Shown piece by piece: positions 415 to 6,515 of a stretch of DNA of 35,396 nucleotides. This stretch comes from Oscillospiraceae bacterium (lineage in GTDB: Bacteria; Bacillota; Clostridia; Oscillospirales; Oscillospiraceae): the NCBI GenBank assembly GCA_902778275.1, contig CACYXE010000018.1, positions 1 through 35,396 on the forward strand, written 5' to 3'. The stretch's first letter is position 1, and every line of letters starts with the position of its first letter. Below the pieces are notes generated by a model. It saw only the letters and a program-made list of their open reading frames with translations. It was not told the origin of the DNA and did no database searches. The translations under genes were made by a program, and so were the position numbers.

Positions 415-2178
415 TCAGACTTGGCCTGCGTCAAATACCTCATAGGCTTCATCTGCTTTCGGCACCAACCTTGTAGAAAGATACTTTTCCATATCGAAGG
501 CGTATTTAGGGTTCGCATCCGAAAGATATTTATAGTTGGGGTGTTTTGTGATGTCGTATTTATCTGAGAGGAAAGGGCGTACACCGCGAAGCTGCAAGAT
601 GCACTTGCCGCCGTCCAGAACAGACAGTTCGTCAATGGTCGCAAGGTCTTTGCCCAGCTTCTGATAGTTCAGTGAGTGTGATACTTCGCGTCCACGGCTC
701 TCGCCGGTGTTGTAGGTGTCTATCGTTTCCTTGCCAAGCGCCTGATTCAGTTCCTTAAGTGTGGTCGGCTCCTTCCCGCCGAGAAAAATGGAGCTGTCAC
801 AGTTGCCGATGATGGTATCCGCGTTGTCCTTATACAGCGCCTTTAGCTGAGACTGCGCCTGCAACACAAGGCAGGCGGAGATCTCTCGGCTTCGTATCGT
901 GGCCATGAGCTTTTCCAGGTTGGGTATCTGCCCGATGTTGGCGCACTCGTCGATGAGGCACCGTACATGAACGGGCAGCCTACCGCCGTACACGTCGTCG
1001 GCTTTCTCGCATAACAAGTTGAATAGCTGACTGTAGATCATAGAGATCAGGAAGTTAAATGTGCTGTCCGTATCAGACATGATAAGAAACAGCACTGTCT
1101 TTCTGTCCCCAATGGTGTCAAGCTCCAGCTCGTCGTACAGGGTAATCTCCCGAAGCTCTTGGATATCAAAAGGTGCGAGGCGAGCGCCGCAGGAAATATT
1201 GATCGACTTCGCGGTTTTGCCCGCCGCCAGCTTATATTTTTTGTACTGCCGCACAGCAAAGTGATTCGGCTCTCTGGATTCCAGCTCCTTGAAGGCTAAA
1301 TCCACGTTGTTTTCGAAGGTCTCGTCGTCTTCGCGTACCTCCATGGCATTGATAAACTCAATGAGCGTTGCGAAGTTCTGTTCCTCCTCGGGCGCTTCGT
1401 AGTGGATGTAACCGATGAGTGCCGTGTAGAGAAGCGTCTCAGCTTTCTGCCAGAAATCGTCGCCGGCTTTGCCGTCGCCCTTGGTATTGGCAATGAGCGT
1501 CGTCACCAGCTTCAGGATGTCTTTTTCCGAATGGATGTACGCAAACGGATTGTAGTGCATGGACTTCTTGAAGTTGATGGAATTGAAGATTTTGACCTTA
1601 TACCCGTTACGAAGCATGAGCTTGCCGCATTCTACTGCGATGCTTCCCTTCGGGTCAGTAACAACATAGGAACTATGGAGCTGCATCAGGTTGGGCTTGA
1701 TGAAAAACCTCGTTTTGCCGCTGCCGGACCCGCCGATCACCAGCACGTTTTTGTTCCGTGCGGTTTTGGGGTCTTTGGGGCGGTTGCTCATCATAAGCCG
1801 TTCCGTCTGCGTAAGAATGATGTTGTTTTCAAACTTGGGATCAATATATGGGGCGATGTCGTCATGCGTGCCCCAGCGAGCGCTGCCATATTCCATGTTT
1901 TTGCGAAATTTCTTGGCATTACGACCTTTGACATACACTACCCCCCGTATAATACCTGCTATCCCGATGCCCACAAGCAAATCAATAGGATGGAAACTCG
2001 GCCATGGAGAAGAAAAGGCAGCGCCAAGACCTTTCGACATAAAGCTGAGCAGCTTCGCGGACATATCTGCGCCGCCCGCCAGCCGCCATGCCAGTCCAAG
2101 CTTTGTTCCCAAAAGGGCAATAAACACATACGGAATATTGGGAAGCACGATCTTCTTGATATTCAATGGCTTCTTCAT
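415..2178 (-). CDS. VirD4/TraG-type type IV coupling protein
   Basis: The product (587 residues) is the membrane ATPase that brings the relaxase-DNA complex to the conjugation channel. Two N-terminal membrane segments lie at about residues 12-32 and 65-83. Walker A is GGSGSGKT at 149-156, and Walker B is CLIDECANIG at about 407-416. Length and layout match the VirD4-like coupling proteins of Tn1549-type elements. The start overlaps the stop of the upstream PcfB-type gene by four bases (ATGA), so the two are translationally coupled. That pairing is typical, because PcfB-like proteins help the coupling protein recruit its cargo. Nothing suggests damage. The family assignment is secure; activity of the element is not known from this window. 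Confidence 0.95.
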   Translation of the reverse strand: MKKPLNIKKIVLPNIPYVFIALLGTKLGLAWRLAGGADMSAKLLSFMSKGLGAAFSSPWPSFHPIDLLVGIGIAGIIRGVVYVKGRNAKKFRKNMEYGSARWGTHDDIAPYIDPKFENNIILTQTERLMMSNRPKDPKTARNKNVLVIGGSGSGKTRFFIKPNLMQLHSSYVVTDPKGSIAVECGKLMLRNGYKVKIFNSINFKKSMHYNPFAYIHSEKDILKLVTTLIANTKGDGKAGDDFWQKAETLLYTALIGYIHYEAPEEEQNFATLIEFINAMEVREDDETFENNVDLAFKELESREPNHFAVRQYKKYKLAAGKTAKSINISCGARLAPFDIQELREITLYDELELDTIGDRKTVLFLIMSDTDSTFNFLISMIYSQLFNLLCEKADDVYGGRLPVHVRCLIDECANIGQIPNLEKLMATIRSREISACLVLQAQSQLKALYKDNADTIIGNCDSSIFLGGKEPTTLKELNQALGKETIDTYNTGESRGREVSHSLNYQKLGKDLATIDELSVLDGGKCILQLRGVRPFLSDKYDITKHPNYKYLSDANPKYAFDMEKYLSTRLVPKADEAYEVFDAGQV

Positions 2179-2660
2179 ATCTCCAGCCCCTTGTCCTTGT
2201 GGCGTACCTTTGTCACGTCCTTTGCAATCTCCGGCGCACGGAGCGATCTGAGCATCTTGATAACTGACGGCCTTTCCTTGTTCTTTTCTTTCTTGCCGGT
2301 GTATTCGGCAAAAGCAGCCGTCAGCGCGTCCGCATCCCGCGCCTTGAAAAAGACCAGGTATTTGGGAATCTCACCGGTCTTGTCCTTTTTGATGGCGTAG
2401 TCCACACCGTACTTCCGGGCAACACGGTCAAAGCCCTTGATGTTGCTTTCTGTGACCTCGATATTGGATACCCCCTGATTCTGGCCAACAAGCTGCTTCA
2501 CCGTCTGTTTTCCGGTCGGCTTGACAGAAGCTTTACCTTGCTGTTTCTGCGCTTTACGGTTGGCAAGATACTTTTCTATCGCTGCTTTCAGCTCTCTCGC
2601 AGTCAGTTTTACTCCGGATATGATAAGTGTAACGGCTCTGTTTTCAACTTCCTCCTGCAT
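2175..2660 (-). CDS. PcfB family (DUF3801) conjugation accessory protein
   Basis: This 161-residue soluble, lysine-rich protein starts MQEEVENRAVTLIISGVKLT. Its core region, from SNIEVTESNIKGFDRVARKY to the acidic and basic stretch near residue 120, resembles PcfB/DUF3801 proteins. In the pheromone plasmid pCF10, PcfB is an accessory factor of the PcfC coupling protein. The gene lies directly upstream of, and overlaps, the VirD4-like gene, which supports the same role here. A ribosome site (GGAGGG) precedes the ATG. The C-terminal tail is strongly basic (RHKDKG), fitting a protein that contacts DNA or the relaxosome. Function is by family analogy. Confidence 0.85.
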   Translation of the reverse strand: MQEEVENRAVTLIISGVKLTARELKAAIEKYLANRKAQKQQGKASVKPTGKQTVKQLVGQNQGVSNIEVTESNIKGFDRVARKYGVDYAIKKDKTGEIPKYLVFFKARDADALTAAFAEYTGKKEKNKERPSVIKMLRSLRAPEIAKDVTKVRHKDKGLEI

Positions 2661-2700: not shown

Positions 2701-3315
2701 TCATCGCTCTGCTGCCGGTGCCGCCTTGCTTTTGGGTGAGGCTTTGGCAGGGCCAGTGGGAATAGCCATAATTCTGCTGCCCATCTTTAAAAAAGCTTCA
2801 GGCTGACGGAACTTGTCCTCGTACTTCTTTTGCAGCTCCTTCGGAAGAGAAGCAAAGTCTTCTTCGCCCAGGCCGCACACAAAAAACTTGCCGGCAACAA
2901 TATCGTAGATCTCGCCATCTTCGCCACGCAGGGCGCGATTTAAGGGTTTTCCCTCCAGCTTGGCTTCTTCTCCACAAATCAATGCCACAGGGTCGTCATA
3001 AGGGTAGATCGCCTGGATATACCCGTCTACAGCCTTCTGCATAGAAGTAAGGTCAGAGCCGATGGTCTTCATCTGCGGATACTGTCCCGGTTCCACCATG
3101 AGGACTTCAATGGAGTTGTCCGGGGCTCTTTCTGCAACGATCTCTTTTCCTTCGTTGCTTTCAAACTCCACATCCACGAAATTATCCGCGTCCAGCACAT
3201 GATCTCCAGCGCGCCACTGATCGCTTACCATTTGCTCGGCTTCCTCTTTGGAAGAGGCTTCTACCGATACTGTGAGCTTTAGCGTTTCGGTGATGGTCAC
3301 ATCAAATTCTTTCAT
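2701..3315 (-). CDS. DpnD/PcfM-like plus DUF3846 protein of the conjugative element
   Basis: The product (204 residues from the chosen ATG) has two parts. Residues about 1-50, beginning MKEFDVTITETLKLTV, resemble the short DpnD/PcfM family. Residues about 65-170, with IEVLMVEPGQYP and later AGKFFVCGLGEEDF, match DUF3846, common in Tn1549-like elements and of unknown function. The tail is low-complexity (AKASPKSKAAPAAER). An upstream in-frame ATG at 3333 overlaps the previous gene. I prefer 3315 because GAGGCG lies at a good distance and the family domain begins there. The role is unknown, presumably in element maintenance or transfer. Confidence 0.75.
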   Translation of the reverse strand: MKEFDVTITETLKLTVSVEASSKEEAEQMVSDQWRAGDHVLDADNFVDVEFESNEGKEIVAERAPDNSIEVLMVEPGQYPQMKTIGSDLTSMQKAVDGYIQAIYPYDDPVALICGEEAKLEGKPLNRALRGEDGEIYDIVAGKFFVCGLGEEDFASLPKELQKKYEDKFRQPEAFLKMGSRIMAIPTGPAKASPKSKAAPAAER

Positions 3316-3325
3316 GCGCTTCGCC

Positions 3326-3532
3326 TCAAACATCTGTCTCTGCCTGAAGAAGGGGGATAATTACGGCTTTTAAAACGGCCTCAGCTTCTTCAGGGGGCAG
3401 TTCGGAGTCTTCGATTGCATCTTCATCCGGCATTTCGATGTCTTCATTGAAGAAGTCCTCAAATTCATCGCAATCTCCGCAGCAGTTGCAGTGGACATGG
3501 ATGTCGCCATTGATCTTGATCGTTACGTTCAT
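3326..3532 (-). CDS. small acidic Cys-motif protein, unknown function
   Basis: This 68-residue protein starts MNVTIKINGDIHVHCNCCGD. It carries a compact His/Cys cluster (H-x-H-C-x-C-C-x-x-C, about residues 12-20) that could bind a metal, then a very acidic region (DEFEDFFNEDIEMPDEDAIE). The same frame is open upstream, but that part overlaps parB. The ATG at 3532 is preceded by GAAAGGCAG, so the short form is chosen. Its stop lies 10 bases before the next gene's start, which places it inside the operon. I do not recognise the family. Confidence 0.6.
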   Translation of the reverse strand: MNVTIKINGDIHVHCNCCGDCDEFEDFFNEDIEMPDEDAIEDSELPPEEAEAVLKAVIIPLLQAETDV

Positions 3533-3549
3533 GTATATACCTGCCTTTC

Positions 3550-4422
3550 TCAGCGCTCGTTCTGGCGCTGCCTTTTTTTCTGCCACTGTTCCAGCAGCTT
3601 GATTATGGTTTGCTGCATTTGCAGCGGTGTGTAACTCCGGGGGAAATATTTGCGGAGGATATCGCTTTTCAGCGTGATCCGGTCCAGTTCGTCCTTCTTT
3701 TCCTCTGACATAATGGCGAACATGGCCTCCTGGGTGCATTTTCCCTCGCGGCTGAGCTTCTTAAGCCGTTGTGCCTGGGAAAGGGATGGGGTGTTCTGCG
3801 AATAGTCCATTGCCTCAAGAAACTGCTTCTGTTCGTCATGTGTGAGATATGACAGTTCAACGGCGGGACTGAAAGCGATCTCCTTGCTGTCCACCTTTTC
3901 CTGTACCTCCGGTAAGAGTTCTGTGAGACGGATATATCGGCGAACCTGATCCCTGCTTGTGCCTGCTTCTTCTGCAACTTTTTCCACCGATAACTTCTGT
4001 GCAATTTGCGTAGAAGTTGATTTGTCTTCCAAGTCAACACGTTTCCCCTGATGTTTCAGCGCTTCCAGCTTCATCCTGTAAGCCTGCGCTCGTTCCATGG
4101 GCGTTATCGTTTCTCTTTGAAGGTTGCTGTCTACCATAAGGATCACCGCCTCATCATCTGTAAGTTCGCGGACGATTGCCGGGATGGTTTTCAGACCTGC
4201 AAGGTCGGCGGCGTGAAGCCGTCTGTGTCCGGCTACCATTTCATAGCCGCCCTCCGGTGCGGGGCGGATAATGGCGGGGCTGAGGATGCCCACCTGCATG
4301 ATGCTGTCAATCGTTTGCTGCATCAGCTCGTCATCCACCACCTTGAAGGGATGGTTTCTGAACGGACGAATCTCCGACAGCGGTATCTGCTGTACCTGTT
4401 CTTGTGATTCTTGCTTTGGCAT
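3550..4422 (-). CDS. parB: ParB/Spo0J family partition protein
   Basis: The product (290 residues) has a ParB/Srx N-terminal domain from IPLSEIRPFRNHPFK, including the GHRRLHAAD box (CTP-binding box II in the family), then a helix-turn-helix (SVEKVAEEAGTSRDQVRRYI) and a C-terminal coiled or basic tail. ParB proteins bind centromere-like sites and spread as clamps to support segregation. The start is the ATG at 4422, eight bases after a perfect AGGAGG (4436-4431); longer starts at 4428 or a TTG at 4446 lie over or before that site. It directly follows the replication initiator gene, suggesting a plasmid-like maintenance module. No parA is visible in this window. Confidence 0.9.
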   Translation of the reverse strand: MPKQESQEQVQQIPLSEIRPFRNHPFKVVDDELMQQTIDSIMQVGILSPAIIRPAPEGGYEMVAGHRRLHAADLAGLKTIPAIVRELTDDEAVILMVDSNLQRETITPMERAQAYRMKLEALKHQGKRVDLEDKSTSTQIAQKLSVEKVAEEAGTSRDQVRRYIRLTELLPEVQEKVDSKEIAFSPAVELSYLTHDEQKQFLEAMDYSQNTPSLSQAQRLKKLSREGKCTQEAMFAIMSEEKKDELDRITLKSDILRKYFPRSYTPLQMQQTIIKLLEQWQKKRQRQNER

Positions 4423-4446
4423 AGTCATCACCTCCTGAGATGACAA

Positions 4447-4472
4447 AAGCCGCAGGCATCGACCTACGGCTT
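4447..4472 (-). other. intercistronic hairpin between repA and parB
   Basis: A ten-pair stem with one G-U (minus strand AAGCCGTAGG with CCTGCGGCTT, loop of six) overlaps the repA stop codon and is followed by TTTTG. It could partly terminate or protect the upstream message and so set the ratio of RepA to ParB. It ends just before the parB ribosome site. Confidence 0.5.
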
Positions 4473-5382
4473 AGATGAATCCCCTCGACATATCGTGTTT
4501 AACAAGACTGCGATAATAGTTCCCGATTGTGAGAGGGGCATTATATAGGGTTGCCAATAGATATTGGCGCATATTGCGGATACGGGTGGTGTTTTCCTCC
4601 AGTCCATCCATGACGAAGCGAATGTGCTCGCTGTCCAGTTTCAGAAACTGGCTTTTAACTACTTCTGCGGGCTTATCATCTCCGGAGATACGAACAGTGG
4701 ATTTTGTTGTGCAGACCACATCGACCATGAGCTCCAGGATCTCTGAAAGCGTGTCCCGATCATATGGAAAATCCAGCAGGAGAGTTTCATACGAAATGTT
4801 CTCCATAATGAGATTTCTGTATTTATCTCTCTGATCCGCTTCGCTTCTTTTCGGTTCCCGATCATGATTCTCTCTGAACGAAGTGAAGAGAAAAGAATCA
4901 GTATCACTATATTCAGTATTATTATTCTCAGTATTATTAGTGTGTGATATTAATGATTCCTGATCTGTGATTATCACATCTCCAGAATCATGATTTTCAC
5001 ATTTCTTGAATTGTGATTCTGAGGGGAGAACGAAGTTCTTGACATAGATGAGATTGGGCTTTCCAAGTCCCTGCCTCCTGCGCTCGATGAGATGGGAATT
5101 GGTTTCCAGCTCATACAGGAGCTTGCCGGCTTTCTGATTGGCACATCCCATGGAGATCATGATGTCCTCAATGGTAAAGATGATATATACACGGCCTTTT
5201 TCATCCAACCAGCCATTCTTTGCTGAAAGGCTCATGCGGTCAAGGAGCAGACCATAGAGGACTTTTGCTTCCGCTGAAATACTCTTGAAGCGTTCTTCCG
5301 TAAACAGTACCTTGGGGATGCGGTAGAAGGAAAACTGTTCTGCTTCTGCGCCGTAGAAGTAATCATACATGGGGGTTGCCAC
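4471..5382 (-). CDS. repA: replication initiator protein A (RepA_N family)
   Basis: The product (303 residues) opens with MATPMYDYFYGAEAEQFSFY followed by RIPKVLFTEERFKSISAEAK and LYGLLLDRM, the hallmark RepA_N domain (about residues 15-110) of low-GC Gram-positive plasmids and Tn1549-like elements. The C-terminal half (about 190-300) resembles DUF6017. Such proteins can drive autonomous replication of the excised circle. The central part is polar and low-complexity (TNNTENNNTEYSDTD). The start is uncertain: a GTG at 5382 lies one or two bases after AAAGGAG, and an ATG at 5370 about 13 bases after it. The gene overlaps the end of the upstream Cys-rich gene, so coupled translation is likely. 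Confidence 0.88.
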   Translation of the reverse strand: MATPMYDYFYGAEAEQFSFYRIPKVLFTEERFKSISAEAKVLYGLLLDRMSLSAKNGWLDEKGRVYIIFTIEDIMISMGCANQKAGKLLYELETNSHLIERRRQGLGKPNLIYVKNFVLPSESQFKKCENHDSGDVIITDQESLISHTNNTENNNTEYSDTDSFLFTSFRENHDREPKRSEADQRDKYRNLIMENISYETLLLDFPYDRDTLSEILELMVDVVCTTKSTVRISGDDKPAEVVKSQFLKLDSEHIRFVMDGLEENTTRIRNMRQYLLATLYNAPLTIGNYYRSLVKHDMSRGFI

Positions 5383-5662
5383 GCTCCTTTAGAAGTCCTA
5401 CAGCACGCATGACCTCCTTTGTACACCACCCGATGCAGGGAGAAGCGCGACCATAGGGACAGTCTCTGCACTCTGAGACAGGAATTGGCTTCTCTGTATC
5501 TGCATTATGGAACTGATCTGCGCCCATACGTCTATCGGGCCGTTTCGCTGTAAAACAACAACATCCTCTTGAATTGACACAGCCTTTTTCTTTTCCTTTC
5601 CAGTAGAGGCAGTATGGGCAGTCATACATGTTGTAGTTCCGCAATATGCCATATGCTTTCAA
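5363..5662 (-). CDS. Cys-rich small protein at the head of the element's operon
   Basis: The likely start is the TTG at 5662, seven bases after GGAGG (5674-5670), giving 99 residues. There are ten cysteines, in CPYC, GCCCF and CRDCPYGRASPCIGWC, so a zinc-binding or disulfide-rich fold is likely. It may belong to the Cys-rich small proteins often seen beside RepA in Tn1549-like elements, but I cannot name the family with confidence. A longer reading frame to 5725 runs over the leader hairpin and lacks a ribosome site. It is the first gene after the element's promoter and overlaps repA by 20 bases. Confidence 0.65.
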   Translation of the reverse strand: MKAYGILRNYNMYDCPYCLYWKGKEKGCVNSRGCCCFTAKRPDRRMGADQFHNADTEKPIPVSECRDCPYGRASPCIGWCTKEVMRAVGLLKERGNPHV

Positions 5663-5694
5663 ATAAACACCTCCTTCCACCCTCGCCAGGGCGT

Positions 5695-5744
5695 AAAAAA
5701 GCGCGGCTGCCAACCCAAGCGTCACTTTGGGTAAACAGACGCGC
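5695..5744 (-). terminator. leader hairpin with T6, probable attenuator
   Basis: On the minus strand GCGCG...CTG...ACCCAA pairs with TTGGGT...CAG...CGCGC (5744-5701), and TTTTTT follows at 5700-5695. This has the form of an intrinsic terminator. It lies between the predicted promoter (5784-5755) and the first gene's ribosome site (5674-5670), so transcripts from that promoter must pass it. It could be an attenuator, or a barrier against read-through from rpsI. Confidence 0.6.
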
Positions 5745-5754
5745 TATGTAATAA

Positions 5755-5784
5755 ACTATATTCAGATGTGCCAGTTTAGGACAA
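5755..5784 (-). promoter_or_regulatory. predicted promoter of the conjugative element operon
   Basis: On the minus strand TTGTCC (5784-5779) and TATAGT (5760-5755) are separated by 18 bases. Transcription would begin near 5748, right at the leader hairpin. It is the only sigma-A-like pair I found before the operon. Confidence 0.5.
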
Positions 5785-5801: not shown

Positions 5802-5825
5802 ATGCGATTATGCGATTATGCGATT
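5802..5825. repeat. three tandem copies of an 8-bp unit
   Basis: The unit atgcgatt occurs three times without gaps. The last copy runs into the rpsI-like attachment repeat that begins at 5821, so the array sits exactly at the element's boundary. Confidence 0.8.
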
Positions 5826-5865
5826 ATCGCTTCGAGATCTGCGGAGCCCGACGAGCGGCTTTGAG
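5821..5865 (-). repeat. diverged copy of the rpsI 3' end (attachment-site repeat)
   Basis: This segment matches 6102-6146, the true end of rpsI, at 42 of 45 positions, including 20 identical bases (5846-5865). In the same frame it encodes [14 protein letters not shown] and a stop, against [14 protein letters not shown] in rpsI. Weaker similarity continues to about 5900: ATGAAGGAGAGCAAGAAGTT reads MKESKK, like MKERKK of rpsI, but about ten extra bases break the frame. Such repeats are left when an element integrates into the 3' end of a gene. Confidence 0.8.
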
Positions 5866-5910
5866 ACCGCCGAAAAACGAACTTCTTGCTCTCCTTCATT
5901 TTCCGGAAAT

Positions 5911-5972
5911 TCCCCCTTTTTTTAACTCAAAACTAGTTCAAAATTGAGTTTTCCCCCATTTTTAACTCAAAA
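5911..5972. repeat. phased AACTCAA repeats, candidate recombinase arm sites
   Basis: AACTCAA lies at 5924-5930 and 5964-5970, with the inverse TTGAGTT at 5944-5950; starts are exactly 20 bases apart, about two helical turns. Each direct copy is preceded by a C5 run and T-rich tract, making two near-identical blocks of about 21 bases some 40 bases apart. The layout suits sites for an integrase or excisionase, but that is inference. Confidence 0.55.
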
Positions 5973-5979
5973 ATACGGG

Positions 5980-6097
5980 ATCAAAACAGAATAAAGAACG
6001 ACAAACCCAATCAAACCAAAGCAAATTTTTTGAAATAGCAAAACCCCGGAAAACCTTGATTTTCCGGGGTTTTTGACGTGTTTTGATGTGGTTTGAT
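5980..6097. repeat. nested inverted repeats around the rpsI terminator
   Basis: ATCAAAACA (5980-5988) is mirrored by TGTTTTGAT (6079-6087), and ATCAAACC (6010-6017) by GGTTTGAT (6090-6097). They flank the rpsI terminator and stop just before the rpsI attachment repeat. They may be additional recombinase-binding sites; no gene is seen in 5866-6104. Confidence 0.45.
6040..6073. terminator. bidirectional intrinsic terminator after rpsI
   Basis: A perfect 14-base inverted repeat (AAAACCCCGGAAAA and its complement, loop of six) gives T-runs on both strands. It would end rplM-rpsI transcription on the minus strand. Confidence 0.85.
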
Positions 6098-6101
6098 AAG
6101 C

Positions 6102-6146
6102 CGATTATCTCTTCGAGAACTGCGGGGCCCGACGAGCGGCTTTGAG
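6102..6146 (-). repeat. rpsI end, the intact partner of the attachment repeat
   Basis: This is the functional partner of the repeat at 5821-5865. It covers the last 14 codons of rpsI, its stop codon and three further bases. The two copies are in the same orientation, 281 bases apart. Confidence 0.8.
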
Positions 6147-6515
6147 GCCGTACTTTTTACGCTCTTTCATTCTCGGGTCGCGGGTCAGCAGACCGGCGGC
6201 CTTCAGGATGGGGCGATAGCTCTCGTCCACCAGCAGCAGCGCGCGGGCGATGCCATGGCGGATGGCGCCGGCCTGGCCGGAAACGCCGCCGCCGGAAACG
6301 GTGGTCTCGATATCGACCTTGCCCAGGGTGCTGGTGGCGACCAGGGGCTGACGAACGATCAGCTTCAGGGTCTCCAGGCCGAAGTACTCGTCGATGTCAC
6401 GGCCGTTGACGGTGATGACACCGCTGCCGTTGGGGATCAGATGGACGCGGGCGACGGAGGACTTTCTGCGTCCGGTGCCGTACATATAGGGCTTCTTGGT
6501 CTTGTAAGTTGCCAT
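6105..6515 (-). CDS. rpsI: 30S ribosomal protein S9
   Basis: The product (136 residues) starts [20 protein letters not shown] and ends in the conserved basic tail [13 protein letters not shown] that reaches the P-site tRNA on the ribosome. It includes the GGG motif region ([20 protein letters not shown]). Length and ends are normal, so the gene is intact although the neighbouring element targets its 3' end; the tail is either the original or one supplied by an element. The ribosome site GGAGG lies nine bases before the ATG. It follows rplM by 16 bases, the usual bacterial pair. Confidence 0.98.

Follow-up and report, generated by a model that had tools for sequence, protein, structure and literature searches.

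A probable ICE end at the rpsI gene of an Oscillospiraceae bacterium, with a swapped gene tail and a split spare copy of its target

The rpsI gene is the site of several streptococcal ICEs and IMEs (PMC5090054, PMC5704250, PMC7563491); in Streptococcus salivarius, 16 of the 37 composite elements described are located there (PMC7563491). A relative of the rpsI element of Roseburia hominis, ICE_RhoA2-183_rpsI, has further been reported in Dorea formicigenerans (PMC12904643). Both ICEs at rpsI and accretion at this gene are thus already on record in these accounts, and the initial annotation of the DNA analysed here was right, given the published streptococcal and Roseburia hominis elements, that integration at rpsI is known in Firmicutes.

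The window, by which we mean the whole stretch of 35,396 nucleotides analysed here (contig CACYXE010000018.1 of assembly GCA_902778275.1), is contig C18 of a 59-contig, 84% complete Oscillospiraceae genome. We interpret it, with considerable confidence, as the rpsI-proximal end (attR side) of an ICE with a swapped tail, terminator and arm, inside which lies a vestigial copy of the target, here called copy A. Its features are as follows:

6105..6515, reverse strand: rpsI, 136 codons, intact (open reading frame, compared with relatives)
6148..6154, reverse strand: putative crossover core AGTACGG, in codons Lys121-Tyr122-Gly123 (A-R-TACGG is kept in 67 integrase-side junctions)
6105..6147, reverse strand: copy B, the apparently element-supplied rpsI tail (repeat match, junction alignment)
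6040..6073, reverse strand: intrinsic terminator that would come with the tail (hairpin fold; similar terminators in relatives)
5951..5968, reverse strand: candidate arm site 1, GAGTTAAAAATGGGGGAA (closely similar site at both G046 element ends)
5910..5928, reverse strand: candidate arm site 2, GAGTTAAAAAAAGGGGGAA (comparison with the arms of relatives)
5824..5893, reverse strand: copy A, a spare rpsI end with both target-site halves (alignments, flank test)
5871..5880, reverse strand: 10-bp insertion splitting the crossover sequence of copy A (gapped alignment)
5755..5784, reverse strand: promoter-like site before the element's first genes (a single hit, where chance predicts 1.0)
5690..5745, reverse strand: leader hairpin, then a T run (fold z -3.8; by eye, L018 and L125 have a comparable one)
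5363..5725, reverse strand: Cys-rich 120-aa ORF with no Pfam family (relatives at the same position in G046 and G074)
4471..5382, reverse strand: RepA_N + DUF6017 replication initiator (Pfam)
3550..4446, reverse strand: ParB (Pfam)
2701..3333, reverse strand: DUF3846 / DpnD-PcfM protein (Pfam)
2175..2660, reverse strand: DUF3801 protein (Pfam)
415..2178, reverse strand: VirD4/TraG coupling protein (PF02534, E 2.6e-55)

The proposal that a conjugative element abuts the 3' end of rpsI is borne out by the VirD4/TraG, DUF3801, ParB and RepA_N proteins encoded there. Two marks of an ICE are present: the coupling protein (VirD4/TraG; PF02534, E 2.6e-55), and attachment repeats with a displaced target end, the assembled far end possibly being that of a second element. 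In the incomplete assembly the PF03432 relaxase profile gave no match, and the PF12846 profile, which we take to cover the VirB4-like ATPases, gave a single match, below the cut-off and on a contig other than that of the window. The hairpin at 5690-5745 and its T run precede the Cys-rich and RepA genes and are possibly a leader attenuator.

The last bases of rpsI (6102-6146) recur at 5821-5865 on the same strand with 42 of 45 positions identical and a spacer of 236 bp, a match that had been noted from the letters of the sequence and that our recount reproduces. The fainter similarity and frame break reported beyond it are also real: a gapped alignment to the rpsI end extends over 5824-5893 (about 70 bp), and the frame break, which we take to be a 10-bp insertion, interrupts it. 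Copy A accordingly reads GAGAGCAAGAAGT, the insertion, and GCGGTCTCAAAGCCGC, continuing through the stop codon. It matches copy B at 38 of 41 positions and the tails of L234 and L122 at 37 of 41, and so resembles the tails of other elements about as closely as it does B. A 29-base piece of the repeat, with up to 3 mismatches allowed, occurs in just two places in the window and in none of 100 shuffles. We further aligned rpsI ends locally to their own downstream flanks. The set comprised 97 non-redundant flanks, each no shorter than 250 bp and with the rpsI end complete; for some of them the rpsI gene at their start is truncated by a contig edge, and at least L056 starts from a displaced tail instead. 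The window ranked top with z = 30.4, the next flank reaching 18.3, and it alone among the 97 bears a clean spare copy. On the 29-base search, the shuffles and the flank test, a chance origin of the repeat was rejected. An unrelated chromosomal duplication was rejected as well, since the arm recurs next to elements. Promoter and terminator scans around copy A gave counts near chance, and its predicted RNA fold was not better than that of shuffles (z 0.31).

A scan of genome contigs for the integrase recovered 351 relatives, and we retained the best 80. Among these best 80 of 351, an rpsI tail follows the last integrase in 66 of the 76 loci with at least 170 bp there and is absent from the other 10; the count omits four loci with less than 170 bp, one of which (L180, 167 bp) does carry a tail. 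At least two integrase matches occur in 56 of the same 80 loci by our own count. Two different tandem tyrosine integrases are seen at the integrase end in L073, L076, L081 and many other loci of the scan. Alignment of 67 distinct junctions revealed the consensus A-R-TACGG, with A in 67/67, R in 67/67 (44 G, 23 A), T in 66/67, A in 67/67, C in 66/67 and both G positions in 67/67, while none of the 13 positions displayed before it is more than 75% conserved. The two element ends of G052, like those of G041, cease to be identical directly after this core. The start of the junction consensus and this break in identity together point to a crossover in codons 121-123.

Within the genus, rpsI tail matches were found in 49 of 61 genomes and an extra tail (E up to 0.001) in 18 by our own count, including a weak one in G044; with the exception of G022 and G044, the extra tails begin at residues 8-12 of the 27-residue query. 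Where both element ends lie on one contig or chromosome, they are 67 kb apart in Eubacterium plexicaudatum ASF492 and 93 kb apart in Oscillibacter sp. 1-3. In Hungatella hathewayi (CP102274.1) the rpsI end lies at 5871158 and the displaced tail, with two integrases, at 5804073, again 67 kb away. On these alignments, a family of tyrosine-integrase elements in gut Clostridia uses the 3' end of rpsI as its attachment site.

The opposite, rpsI-proximal flank is equally patterned. A survey of named flanks, drawn from the 34 records with a match among 36 integrase-bearing records, returned 30 rpsI loci. By eye, rpsI is followed in 26 of the 30 by a terminator, by TTTGA-type repeats and by a further repeat, close to GTTA...AAC, that occurs twice; 16 of the 30 have a ParB or RepA match no more than 1.5 kb away. 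The window presents the same order, namely a terminator followed by two arm sites, and the integrase end bears one GTTA...AAC-type arm site. L018 and L125 show this same arm at the left end of the family without a copy A. The 236 bp between the repeats are thus, as read from these comparisons, the element's terminator and arm with its two repeated arm sites. As the initial annotation held, rpsI is intact (6105-6515) and its terminator follows, as a strong hairpin at 6040-6073 (-22.2 kcal/mol, z -5.6). Of the two origins suggested there for the double layout, the better fit is an element end that brings its own rpsI terminator together with a spare end, given the tail, terminator and arm after rpsI in 26 of the 30 loci (by eye). 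Tandem attachment sites find no support at 5821-5865, which lacks A-R-TACGG and has no arm after copy A.

In the mechanism that we propose, a tyrosine integrase would recombine the A-R-TACGG in rpsI codons 121-123 with the identical sequence on the element circle. Integration would keep rpsI whole, its last ~43 bp being replaced by the element's tail, accompanied by the terminator and two arm sites, so that from about Tyr122 on the codons of rpsI in the window are, we infer, element-supplied. The native tail and terminator would be displaced to the far end, beside the integrase genes, and copy A, which lies immediately interior to the second arm site, would be a vestigial target copy carried within the element. 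The layout, the junction consensus and the displaced tails are read directly from the DNA; binding of the integrase and excision are what such a layout would predict. For one relative, G046, comparison of flanks also displays the empty site: its displaced tail with 1.5 kb beyond matches the rpsI tail with 1.5 kb beyond in G067, G094 and G009 at 85-86%.

Copy A is probably not a second usable site. With its crossover split by 10 bp and no arm beyond it, it should be inert for recombination. These same features weigh against the proposal that it is a former attachment site, left by successive insertions and one deletion, with the 281-bp B-to-A unit as a gene-less micro-CIME. Many genomes of the genus have additional displaced tails or several in succession, a terminator-like hairpin (5690-5745) stands ~80 bp beyond copy A, and S. 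salivarius composites at rpsI, rpmG, fda and rplL are described as including microCIMEs of 130-220 bp that carry no genes (PMC7563491), all of which would suit such a history. Against it, that hairpin is also found in L018 and L125, which have no copy A, and the arm between B and A is the family's normal left end, present in the same two flanks. Moreover, in the streptococcal composites, as described, decay is most advanced in the elements at the greatest distance from the target gene, while here the B-A unit is the nearest (PMC7563491). We therefore regard a former site as unlikely. As a micro-CIME, which would have two usable attachment sites, the 281-bp unit was rejected because the A-R-TACGG crossover is absent from copy A.

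It is also conceivable that copy A is a functional integrase-binding site whose half-sites stand about one helical turn out of register, so that it is bound without strand exchange. Exactly 10 bp are inserted both in the window and in Oscillibacter sp. 1-3 (L213). Half-copies occupy the same place in L017 (p 0.003), L089 (p 0.003) and L122 (p 0.007; 300 shuffles, 0.003 being the floor of a test applied to 97 flanks). Further half-copies can be made out by eye in L034 (gap of about 9 bp), L128 (gap of about 11 bp), L037 and L038. On the other side, the copies in L034, L027 and L037 are weak or poorly conserved, and copy A is missing from the closest subfamily (L018, L125). A test of 43 arms chosen by eye (17 from the genus and 26 of the 30 named flanks, omitting L221, L225, L236 and L237) gave no general spare-copy signal in the 26 named arms, the forward orientation being better in 9 and the reverse in 8, and 11 against 6 in the 17 genus arms. 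A binding site of this kind seems to us distinctly improbable, and we would give equally little credence to its extension, that some Oscillospiraceae rpsI-targeting elements keep, interior to their arm sites, a target copy whose crossover is divided by roughly one turn of DNA and which binds integrase, does not recombine and controls excision. An assembly error that duplicated the rpsI end in this metagenome bin might be entertained for a fragmented genome of 59 contigs and 84% completeness; the two copies are not identical, however, with 3 mismatches between A and B in 45 positions, and copy A further shows an insertion of its own and an upstream half resembling that seen in other elements, making such an error very improbable indeed. 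A vestigial target copy within the element end remains our preferred reading.

A third rpsI end with its own terminator, copy C, lies on contig C17 of the same genome (C17:34834-34871). To one side is a frameshifted tyrosine integrase, followed by another integrase of which the contig edge leaves just the C-terminal part; to the other are a gene with a leucine-rich-repeat match (below the Pfam cut-off), copy D and chromosomal genes. Copy D is a degenerate fourth tail and terminator (L012 16767-16867) with a score of 37; the highest score among 300 single-base shuffles was 15.5. Hence, C17 carries at least two displaced tails in a row, as in tandem accretion at rpsI. The third copy that was to be looked for next to an integrase does exist in this genome, beside tyrosine integrases, though this end may belong to another element than that of the window. 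Arm types agree within one element, G046 having GAGTTAAAAAATGGGGCAA and G052 AGTTAACGAGGGGCTAAC with small changes. Among 32 genomes with both ends assembled, an end's own partner ranked in the top three by arm score in 20 and lower in 12, and the own-pair score was at most 28 in 8, including the window's genome, whose own pair scored 22 (rank 10 of 32) and has arms of different types. The best fits were the G052 left arm for the arm on C17 (35) and the G046 right arm for that of the window (47). Likewise, the C17 integrase pieces resemble those of G052 at 92% and 100%, while the window RepA resembles that of G046 at 86% (first 79 residues only, at a contig end) and that of G052 at 49-56%. These arm types and protein likenesses make it probable that C17 represents the distal end of a different element. 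As the arm types differ, two or more elements may sit in a row at rpsI with the middle unassembled, which is the simplest reading and one in which copy A would not be a boundary. A search of the genome for a second element's RepA and VirD4 was negative, the assembly containing one of each, and the window and C17 ends may instead belong to one hybrid element.

The C17 flank showed no DNA match of at least 200 bp to any rpsI flank; a protein encoded next to copy D shares 79% identity with the product of an ORF 8.6 kb downstream of rpsI in G072. The initial annotation would have been contradicted by element-free strains with both repeats and the 236-bp segment. The G059 flank (L038/L057) has an arm and a half spare copy, with none of the searched element proteins within 6.3 kb, and looks like a remnant.

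Other arrangements of the rpsI end were also observed. In L059, L078, L083, L084, L101 and L126, about 1.5-6.5 kb separate rpsI from a displaced tail, with no match to this integrase family; these stretches encode regulators and ABC-transporter-like, hydrolase-like or ParA/ParB proteins (by eye except ParB) and are possibly cis-mobilizable cassettes. Short rpsI-tail duplications, up to ~250 bp from rpsI and beside small stem-loops, occur in L021, L036, L039, L043, L096 and L123, and by eye the five flanks following the window in the z ranking (L123, L043, L096, L021, L036) are of this different kind. In G022 (L055 2599-2766, 5427-5834) a full rpsI is followed 2.7 kb downstream by a 56-codon rpsI end that starts upstream of the crossover; two genes lie between them, the first presumably encoding an MBOAT-like acyltransferase. 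In L128 (G078:C85) and L086 (G037:C86) the rpsI match stops at codons 123 and 129-130, respectively, rather than 136, and in G078 the core seems to run directly into the second half of a terminator.

Taken together, these observations provide a base-level attachment-site model for a widespread rpsI-targeting family of gut Clostridia: an A-R-TACGG core, a swapped tail and terminator, and arms tending to match at both ends. In fragmented genomes, matching of arm sites may make it easier to assign element ends to each other.

A literature search at the level of titles and abstract openings named no crossover-broken spare copy inside an rpsI element, which does not prove its absence. ICE_RhoA2-183_rpsI of Roseburia hominis is likewise a putative ICE in the rpsI of a gut clostridium; the published description, the sole basis of our comparison, mentions no attachment-site anatomy, arms or spare copy in the parts available (PMC12904643). 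The S. salivarius composites share the rpsI 3' target and form tandem ICE/IME/CIME arrays, but they are streptococcal, their CIMEs lie distal to the gene, and the account, as far as accessible, describes no crossover-broken copy inside an ICE end (PMC7563491). IMESag-rpsI of Streptococcus agalactiae also combines a PF00589 integrase, the 3' end of rpsI and a RepA_N protein; unlike an ICE, it is a 9.5-kb mobilizable element that is not self-conjugative (PMC5090054). Set beside these systems, the main arrangement in the window is of a known kind and its spare copy is a minor oddity.
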